From: Isosphaeraceae bacterium
GTDB lineage: Bacteria > Planctomycetota > Planctomycetia > Isosphaerales > Isosphaeraceae
Direction of reading: 5' to 3'
DNA length: 39,647 nucleotides
NCBI GenBank assembly: GCA_025356475.1
Contig: JANXSX010000080.1
Location: forward strand, 1 to 39,647
The notes below the pieces were generated by a model that saw only the letters and a list, made by a program, of their open reading frames with translations, did not search any database and was not told the origin of the DNA. Of the stretch, positions 11,995 through 14,513 are shown piece by piece. Position 1 is the first letter of the stretch. Every line of letters begins with the position of its first letter. The position numbers and the translations under genes are program-made.

Positions 11995-12584
11995 CGGATT
12001 CAGCCCCTGGGTTTCTGGTTGTGCGTGAAATTTCGAGATGAAAACGGACGGATCTCGGGGGGAAAGACCATCGTTCACGTGGAGACGCAAAGCGTACAGA
12101 TCGAGTGATAAGATTCTTGAGGCATCGAGTCAACGAGGGACTTCGGTGCTCAGCGTGGGGTCGTCGTAACGAGCGAACCGTTCCGCATTGGCGACATCTG
12201 CGGATTCTGAGCGAGGTTCGTCAGCTTCCGAAAGATCAACAGGGGGGCGGGCTTGAGGTTGGGCAAGGTTGGCTGATCATGATCGACTGTCTCGCGCTCA
12301 AAGTGAAAATGACGCGCGGGGGGATCGCGGACGGAAACGAACCCACGACTCCATGGGTACTCATCCCGATTGGCTGAGCTTACTCATTCTAACGCCAGGA
12401 AGCCATTCCATTTCTTGAGTCCATTTGCCCTCATTTCTCGTATTCCCGTCCCCTGTTTGTTGCAAATTCGGGAAATGCCGGGAATTTCGCGATCTTCGTC
12501 TCTATTCTTTTTCGTGTGAACTGATACATACTGTGGACGCAAAGTCAGTATCCAGATGGTCACTGTCGGAGTTGAATCAACGTC
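11995..12584. other. Intergenic region between divergent genes
   Basis: This 590-bp stretch separates the minus-strand SulP gene from the plus-strand SRAP-like gene and should carry promoters for both. A small inverted repeat (AAATTC 12464-12469, GAATTT 12482-12487) was seen. No clear -35/-10 pair and no protein-like frame were recognised. Confidence 0.5.
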
Positions 12585-13052
12585 GTGTGCCTGGGGATTG
12601 CCTTGGCATGGAGCGAATTGCCCACGGAGATGATTGGGCGACATGGCTTGGACCGGCGCGTTCACGAACGCGGCGGCGAGCGAGAGATCCAATTCCTGTA
12701 CCGAGATCGAGCCCCTCGGCTTCCCGTCTGGCGTGATGGGCAACTGCAAATCGCGCGCTGGGGCAATGGTCGTGGCCAGAGTCAATTCTTACCCAAGACC
12801 GGTTGGACTTGGCTCTCAACGATCCAGGAGGGAGGCTGGCAAGGCTCAGATGCCGTCACGGTCGATATCCCAGCAATGCTTGCGCTCGATCGTGGTGTCT
12901 GGTATCGCGTCCGGCAAGGATTTCGTGGGTTACTCGTGCCTGATGAGTGCGGTAAGGCCGTTGTCTATGTCATCTGCGAACCCGCCAGCCACTACTATCG
13001 GATCATGACACGGTCAGATCGGATGCCCGTATTGATCGAGGAGCAGATTTGA
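12585..13052 (+). CDS. Short SRAP-like protein (possible HMCES/YedK relative)
   Basis: This 155-residue protein starts with Met-Cys, and its C-terminal part ends with a strand and RSDRMPVLI. SRAP proteins (YedK, HMCES) crosslink abasic DNA through Cys2 and carry a late HDRMPV-type motif; their WGL motif may match RWGN at about residues 58-61 here. The protein is much shorter than YedK (about 220) and has Ser where the catalytic His of the late motif would be. The first start, GTG 12585, is required to place Cys at position 2; the ribosome site is weak. The protein reads as a genuine conserved gene, but SRAP membership is inferred from short motifs and could be wrong. Confidence 0.7.
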   Translation: MCLGIALAWSELPTEMIGRHGLDRRVHERGGEREIQFLYRDRAPRLPVWRDGQLQIARWGNGRGQSQFLPKTGWTWLSTIQEGGWQGSDAVTVDIPAMLALDRGVWYRVRQGFRGLLVPDECGKAVVYVICEPASHYYRIMTRSDRMPVLIEEQI

Positions 13053-13696: not shown

Positions 13697-14170
13697 TTAT
13701 TTTTCCTTATTTGGCCTCCCCTTGGGACGGGTCGGCCACTCTGGTAGACCCAGATGCTTGGCCGTTGCTCGATCCATTCCGGTTTTCCTATCGGTCGGTC
13801 GCTGACGCTTGCCGTACGTACCTCCGAAAGTGTAGTACCATCCCACGGGGTAGCGACCCGTTGCCGCCACGGCTCGCCTCGCACCGAGCCCGCTCGTCGG
13901 CACCTAGTTCAGTCCACTCGGGTAATTTGTCCAACAGGGGGTCGGGGTCGACAACAAGTCCAATGAGGCTCGCGTGGCTTGACCAGCGATTTTCGCCAGG
14001 CTAGCCACCATTCCGGCGCGGAGCGGGTTCGCCTCAATGTAGGCAAGCACCGTCAGAAGATAGTCGCCATCCTGGACGGCGGGGCTTTTGAACCGCCCTT
14101 GCCAGACGTGTCCCGCATCGCAACTACTGGGCCAAGCAGGGGACTGAACGGTTACGATGGAGTTTGCCAA
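13697..14170 (-). pseudogene. REP-associated tyrosine transposase (IS200-like, RAYT), decayed fragment
   Basis: On the minus strand, 14125-13990 reads as the middle of a Y1/RAYT transposase (GHVWQGRFKSPAVQDGDYLL, then YIEANPLRAGMV). Its characteristic basic tail (ATAKHLGLPEW, RPKGRPNKEK, stop at 13697-13699) lies in another frame near the left end, and the part between lies in a third frame. At least two frameshifts are therefore present. The N-terminal third, including the HUH motif, is missing at the right end, where the sequence meets the sppA fragment. The gene cannot encode an active transposase. It is a remnant of the family that mobilises REP palindromes. Confidence 0.75.
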
Positions 14171-14513
14171 GCTTGAAAAGCTTACTGGGGGCCGGGTCTA
14201 CACCGGTCGGCAGGCCAAGGCAATTGGACTGATCGATGAGCTGGGAACACTCGACGATGCCATCGCTGCCGCCAAGGGGATGGTAGGTCTCTCATCGGGC
14301 GAGAAGACCGAGTTGCTGATTCTTCCCGAGGCCCGGAGTGTGCTGGAATCGCTGCTCGGGCCGCTCGAAGGACTGGATCTGACCGCGCCGACGATCACCG
14401 TGCCGATCCCCGAAATCCTTCAGCCGGCTCTGGCCAAGGTCAACACGTTTCTAAACTTGGTCGGCAAAGAGCCGGTGATTTTGGCGCTTCCCTACGACCT
14501 ACGCATTCGCTAA
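14157..14513 (+). pseudogene. 5'-truncated sppA (signal peptide peptidase), C-terminal remnant
   Basis: The 118 codons match the C-terminal part of SppA-type serine peptidases, with the conserved GGRVYTGRQAKAIGLIDELG followed by a helix (TLDDAIAAAKGMVGL). The catalytic Ser/Lys dyad and at least 200 residues normally found upstream are absent. Upstream sequence instead belongs to the decayed RAYT gene on the opposite strand. The join lies between about 14125 and 14170. This looks like a deletion linked to a mobile element. The frame is intact to its stop but is unlikely to be functional. Confidence 0.75.

Follow-up and report, generated by a model that had tools for sequence, protein, structure and literature searches.

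A Predicted SRAP-Fold Miniature Protein as a Probable Partner of a UmuC-like Y-Family Polymerase in Planctomycetia

Introduction

SRAP proteins (PF02586) include E. coli YedK, human HMCES, and B. thetaiotaomicron BT_1218, and are usually seen as covalent guards of abasic sites. The consequences of mutating YedK are set out in an excerpt of PMC9436759. Glu105 is essential, with the E105D substitution impairing the protein only modestly, and the C2A and C2S variants still form a Schiff base. The H160A variant crosslinks at least 10-fold more slowly but is not inactive, and N75A has a very modest effect. The abstract of the same paper says that human HMCES inhibits mutagenic translesion synthesis.

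SRAP genes also occur close to those of DNA polymerases. They have been known since 2013 to neighbor UmuCD, DinB, and ImuAB-DnaE2 (PMC3765255, in excerpt), a location near polB2 is given in an excerpt of PMC11791011, and in 2026 SRAP-like proteins were proposed as PolY-binding regulatory subunits (PMC12926913, in excerpt). The group in the last of these comprises an SRAP-related protein and a UmuC-like Y-family polymerase. UmuD′ and YolD/YqjX are small proteins encoded beside Y-family polymerases with RecA-NT-like and tail motifs (PMC6511836, in excerpt). They are built on an SH3-type core with an N-terminal arm, according to excerpts of PMC6511836 and PMC12926913. Given the neighbor reports of 2013 and the more recent proposal, the association between SRAP-related proteins and UmuC-like polymerases has probably been noticed already.

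We have studied a planctomycete gene whose initial annotation, made from the DNA letters, described a miniature SRAP-like protein that might be a new short branch of the family. A literature search over titles and the starts of abstracts found no description of a planctomycete mini-SRAP. The family analyzed here is likely to be the SRAP-related group of PMC12926913, as far as the excerpt of that paper describes it, and it displays the same kind of association with a polymerase.

Results

The window is the whole stretch of DNA analyzed, 39,647 nucleotides of an Isosphaeraceae bacterium. On its forward strand the positions 12585–13052 form an open reading frame of 155 amino acids, with a GTG start and a TGA stop. 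The product begins with Met-Cys (GTG-TGC), contains the C-terminal motif RSDRMPVLI, and ends ...RSDRMPVLIEEQI; the frame was present as first described. An in-frame TGA occupies 12573–12575, and the GTG at 12585, three codons after that stop, is the sole ATG, GTG, or TTG start ahead of the conserved part. The cysteine is therefore residue 2. The open reading frame is a real gene and more than a chance frame, because a search of 59 whole genomes, among them that of the window, gave a match in 39 (E ≤ 0.001) and because its differences from the nearest named relative (L045) are distributed 20, 16, and 80 over codon positions 1, 2, and 3. These correspond to 66 synonymous and 31 nonsynonymous codons.

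The closest match in another genus reaches up to 81% identity over all 155 residues. The best matches in other members of the window's family are 58–82% identical, that in G005 stopping at a contig end. When 392 genomes from across the phylum were sampled, 14 had the small gene (E ≤ 0.01), and each of these belongs to the family or class of the window. Scanning of named contigs with one degenerate pattern, which relatives lacking the pattern escape, gave 50 loci whose titles are mostly those of planctomycetes. Three MAGs (L067, L068, L070) are labelled Kuenenia, itself a planctomycete; the remaining loci are one contig of a Peribacteria MAG (L079) and two labelled only 'bacterium' (L071, L091). 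Because the named loci overlap the relatives' genomes and one assembly supplied several of them, they do not count as independent samples, and linked genes inside one phylum are not independent events. The small gene had no match in the phage and viral collections searched (IMG/VR and phage records). Extra copies of the gene were seen in G013 (three copies in the genome) and in G047 (two copies, L030 and L031). Both G047 copies have Met instead of the acidic residue 102. A further extra copy (L032, at G036:C1:3401218–3401681) is split across two frames.

Sequence searches did not recognize the protein. The window protein had no match in Pfam, NCBIfam, PHROGs, or PDB sequences. The PF02586 model found nothing in it at E ≤ 10, nothing in 50 members at E ≤ 1, and no match across the window's genome. 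When the 50 members were compared with Pfam no fitting family emerged, the best E-value being 0.035 for a NUDIX model, in 3 of 50. One profile match, to beta-lactamase inhibitory protein II (E = 2e-4), was rejected because it falls in a repeat of that protein and spans 43 residues. Another genome of the window's family, G066, has 11 matches to ordinary SRAPs, several of them partial, including two equal-score pairs on contigs C3 and C4.

Comparison of profiles gave a different outcome. Aligned by hhalign against 35 ordinary SRAPs, the small family matched at the HDRMPV segment with E = 3.7e-4. A profile of 72 rows scored 29.0, whereas none of 60 column shuffles exceeded 22.5 and reversing the profile gave 13.6. 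The profile search that had been suggested for this protein thus divides: there is no PF02586 match, but there is a signal between families. Since the sequence model finds nothing and the counterpart of YedK His160 is replaced (see below), we do not assign the small protein to PF02586.

The structure of the window protein was predicted with AlphaFold2, giving a model with pLDDT 94.2 and pTM 0.89. Foldseek returned only three PDB matches at probability >0.9, all SRAP, with an E-value of just 0.027. Superposition by VIA-align placed SRAP entries in all of the top 15 positions, with Z = 8.8–10.5 and rmsd 3.1–3.8 Å over 125–140 of the 155 residues, and the first row after these was an unrelated protein with Z = 2.2. 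Those of the 15 that are titled hypothetical protein, or have no SRAP in the title, match the SRAP profile. The superposed spans run from model residue 2 or 3 to 153 or 154, and from chain residue 2 (10 in 2icu) to 169–219. In 14 of the 15 rows model residue 2 falls on chain residue 2 at the start of the superposition. A viral fold library gave nothing at E ≤ 0.001, the best probability among the matches listed being 0.44.

The predicted fold bears out the resemblance to SRAP, and the proposal of a short, separate branch is also supported. On the basis of the structural superpositions and of the hhalign signal at HDRMPV, seen where libraries gave no match, we consider that the window protein, as modelled, is an SRAP-fold protein whose sequence has drifted past the reach of sequence searches. 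It resembles SRAP over nearly its whole length but is 155 residues long, compared with 220–260 for SRAP proteins (PMC3765255, in excerpt), and has no equivalent of the part of YedK beyond about residue 169.

Open reading frames were compared across the 50 named loci and the window, and a Y-family polymerase of about 400–430 amino acids was found to adjoin the small gene. It is present at 49 of 50 named loci, and lies within 200 bp of the small gene at 48. The exceptions to close linkage are L049, where the polymerase is 2.7 kb off, and L053, whose contig extends only 242 bp upstream. The polymerase is upstream on the same strand in 43 of the 49 loci, and divergent in the other 6 (L062, L064, L066, L069, L073, L075). 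At seven loci, including three of Gimesia, the polymerase match ends 3 positions ahead of the start codon of the small gene; several polymerases at named loci stop at a contig end. Every cluster of reading frames shared by between 16 and 51 loci corresponds to the small gene, to the polymerase, or to reversed or shifted frames of either, and the next largest cluster is common to just 6 of the 51. Beside the second copy in G047 (L031), no such polymerase was found.

The two genes also occur together in whole genomes. All 39 genomes that have the small gene also have the same polymerase subfamily (at least 47% identity): adjacent to it in 35, 2.7 kb off in G016, and unlinked in G007, G025, and the window's own genome (G000). 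In the last of these the polymerase is on another contig (C26:13000–14229), and is for that reason invisible from the window sequence. Among the 20 genomes without the small gene no full-length copy of the polymerase subfamily was found. Eighteen have no member of the subfamily, their polymerases being at most 37% identical or absent at E ≤ 1e-20. In G051 there is a partial polymerase match, 62% identical over about 200 residues, and no small gene was found. In G017 a polymerase with stop codons adjoins a remnant of the small gene. The retention of both genes when unlinked, and their decay together, argue for a functional pair beyond simple linkage.

Within the window, at 13904–14170 (reverse strand) and 14157–14510 (forward strand), a frame GHVWQGRFKSPAV...YIEANPLRAGMV overlaps a truncated peptidase S49 (SppA-like) fragment. 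The frame has no Pfam match, and is presumably of the kind typical of REP-associated (RAYT) transposases. Rearranged ground near 13904–14510 may explain the separation of the small gene from its polymerase.

The three polymerase copies that were scanned contain IMS (PF00817) and IMS_C (PF11799) domains. Their scores are far under the NCBIfam cut-offs for DinB and UmuC, and we therefore treat the polymerase as a subfamily of its own. Motifs were sought with simple patterns: all 44 full-length polymerases, that of the window's genome included, have the catalytic D[AS]DC[FY]Y and S[IV]DE, 38 of 44 a RecA-NT-like INxRxGR, and 36 of 44 an [LFI]F[DEGN] at the place expected for a clamp motif. The strict tail pattern CD[IVLM]RG[KR]xCF is present in 24 of 44. 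The names RecA-NT and clamp motif follow the usage in excerpts of PMC6511836 and PMC12926913. With this outfit the protein looks like a UmuC-like multisubunit polymerase, and like a working subunit of a mutasome.

Of 46 regions upstream of the polymerase gene, 19 contain the element TTGAC-N-GTnCATG with fixed spacing; these come from loci among L045–L064, L114, L116, L117, L122, and L123. In these 19 regions there is a promoter-like TTGAC ... TAnACT, with GTnCAT repeats lying over the −10 and the start codon. The element is possibly an SOS-type operator. A matrix was built from 13 of the 19 sites, of equal length, which themselves score 39–57 bits. The best score upstream of the window gene is −10 bits, ranking 23rd in the window, so that the polymerase promoter consensus is absent there. 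Upstream of the polymerase gene at L090 lies the sequence GAACACATGTTC, which we take to resemble a Gram-positive LexA box.

Active-site positions were counted in near-complete members only, with identical ones taken once, reducing 97 rows to 72. Alignment A1 leaves out the window's own row (L001), L007, L032, L037, L038, and L039 (the last five truncated, broken, or partial), and genome-search matches whose locus was not fetched; alignment A2 leaves out L050, with its divergent C-terminus. The Cys2 codon (12588–12590, forward strand), where the superposition begins, is the counterpart of YedK Cys2. Position 2 is Cys in 58 of the 72 non-identical members, Ser in 6, Leu in 3, Met in 2, and Ala, Tyr, and Phe in 1 each, with start codons uncertain for some of the 14 members without Cys (L053, L090, L105). 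The tree places at least 8 changes between Cys and non-Cys. Among the reference SRAPs Cys2 is invariant by construction, since the 34 sequences other than YedK were all taken to begin at Met-Cys. The initial annotation had named homologs without a conserved Cys2 as counting against its proposal, and such homologs were found. An SRAP enzyme in miniature was thus too strong a description for a family in which Cys2 varies, and what survives of it is a relative with the SRAP fold.

The HDRMPV counterpart is Ser144-Asp-Arg-Met-Pro-Val149 (13014–13031, forward strand), with Ser144 where YedK has His160, and the reported absence of the His is confirmed. The His of this motif is kept in 7 of 72 members, with 5 changes on the tree. 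At another position, His136 (PASHYY; codon 12990–12992, forward strand), the residue is His in 68 of 72.

Asp102 (IPAMLALD; codon 12888–12890, forward strand) belongs to a position that is Glu in 47 members, Asp in 22, Met in 2, and Thr in 1. It is probably the counterpart of YedK Glu105, because the order of strands and the I-P-A-x4-acid spacing are common to the two. A C-terminal fragment (residues 88–155), modelled from 39 of the 50 rows of alignment A2 and mapped by the end points of its superpositions, agrees with this assignment within 3 residues. SRAP alone ranks first for the fragment, with low Z (3.5–4.0, against 2.1). In three HMCES rows Asp102 falls on residue 127, and the YedK and BT_1218 rows begin 3 residues earlier than these. 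We take HMCES residues 127 and 210 to be the catalytic Glu and His; the BT_1218 Glu is residue 112 as counted in the alignment. The global hhalign alignment, of low confidence, instead lays LPKTGWTW on the Glu105 strand and Trp76 on Glu105, with no acidic residue there. We provisionally rejected that register in favor of Asp102, because fragment 88–155 by itself covers YedK 88–169 and Glu105 lies within this.

Asn75, of the NAR.ET motif, is invariant in 35 of 35 reference SRAPs. The window protein reads WGNGRGQS, and some members WGNARGES or WGNARGQS, near to NAR.ET. Its Trp59-Gly60-Asn61 (ARWGN; codons 12759–12767, forward strand) has Trp in 72 of 72 members and Asn in 64 of 72. hhalign puts Trp-Gly on the W-G strand of SRAP and, with low confidence, Asn61 on YedK Asn75. 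Judged by its distance from Trp59 and by the superposed fragment, however, the Asn75 counterpart would fall at residues 72–74.

Could the small protein nevertheless be a genuine SRAP enzyme that mainly crosslinks AP sites in single-stranded DNA, with Cys2 as the reactive residue, acidic residue 102 as the general base, and no need of His160? Most members have both Cys2 and Glu or Asp at 102 (58 and 69 of 72), some retain the HDRMPV His, and those with WGNARGES or WGNARGQS, together with the low-confidence placement of Asn on Asn75, point the same way. Moreover, the N75A, H160A, and E105D variants of YedK all retain activity (PMC9436759, in excerpt). Set against this are the 14 members with Cys2 replaced and the repeated changes on the tree, and these members adjoin the same polymerase (for example L068, L070, L071, L072, and L074–L077). 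In addition, where the second residue is large, the initiator Met should not be cleaved off. We therefore regard crosslinking as the main job as doubtful. Taking the residue pattern with the effects of the YedK mutations, AP-site chemistry is possible in the window protein, and unlikely in some of its relatives.

A thiol autopeptidase, turning the polymerase on by self-cleavage in an SOS response as UmuD does, would suit a gene adjoining a UmuC-like polymerase, and a Cys2/His/Glu triad has been proposed for SRAP (PMC3765255, in excerpt). Yet the triad His is missing from the window protein and from 65 of 72 members, and the Cys from 14, and later YedK work describes AP-site chemistry (PMC9436759, in excerpt), so that we consider such a switch highly improbable. 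Finally, the absence of library matches, the modest Foldseek E-value, and the failure of Foldseek to match the C-terminal fragment alone might suggest a coincidence of a small beta-rich fold with two short motifs, but this is scarcely credible against 15 leading SRAP superpositions far above the next row, a fragment that again ranks SRAP first if at low Z, the hhalign shuffle control, and an SRAP-like gene context.

Discussion

We think it probable that in Planctomycetia the small protein is an SRAP-fold accessory dedicated to a single Y-family translesion polymerase of the UmuC-like kind. Since it is nearly always encoded beside one polymerase subfamily, its likely place is that of a small subunit assisting this polymerase, and not that of a complete SRAP enzyme. 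By analogy, the best reading of its role would be one comparable to that of UmuD or YolD in a UmuC-like mutasome. We base this on the fold of the model, linkage, co-occurrence, and conservation of motifs. The window gene itself, which is not in an operon with the polymerase and lacks the promoter consensus upstream, is evidence against it. So are the second G047 copy, beside which no such polymerase was found, and G051, with part of the polymerase but no small gene found; the loci, moreover, are not independent.

The protein is like SRAP in its Met-Cys start, W-G strand, DRMPV segment, acidic residue at the probable Glu105 position, and DNA-repair context. It differs in having no match to the Pfam model, a replaced His160, a variable Cys2, and an uncertain Asn75 counterpart. 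With UmuD′ and YolD/YqjX it shares small size and a place beside a Y-family polymerase carrying RecA-NT-like and tail motifs, but its modelled fold is that of SRAP and not an SH3-type core with an N-terminal arm.

An accessory subunit might act in the following way. Where synthesis stalls at a primer-template junction, the small protein would associate with the polymerase, much as UmuD′ does with UmuC and as YolD is thought to do for YqjW. Its SRAP DNA-binding face would keep hold of the single-stranded template, either at the lesion or close to it. The C-terminal motifs, clamp-binding-like and RecA-NT-like, would be the polymerase's own contribution. Members with Cys2 could, as an optional activity, shield an abasic site in the template covalently. 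Since Cys2 and the acidic residue at the probable Glu105 position remain in most members, including that of the window, this activity may have been kept. Complex formation, binding of DNA, and chemistry are all inferred here.

More tentatively, and with rather less confidence than in the partnership itself, we suggest that in Planctomycetia the SRAP fold may have been shrunk and reused as a UmuD-like polymerase subunit, with the Cys2 chemistry lost repeatedly and the partnership kept. If this is so, it would to our knowledge be the first branch of SRAP in which the chemistry is dispensable.

The new elements are the planctomycete range of the family, the loss of His160, the variable Cys2 beside a retained acidic residue, the joint decay of the two genes, and the pairs that persist unlinked. 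A likely role is thereby given to a family that goes unrecognized in Pfam, PHROGs, and NCBIfam. Because the same polymerase is accompanied by members that have or lack Cys2, and that have or lack the His, the family makes up a natural series of mutants in which chemistry can be set against partnership. An SRAP fold wired one-to-one to an error-prone polymerase suggests a use opposite to that of the covalent guard, helping or licensing bypass.
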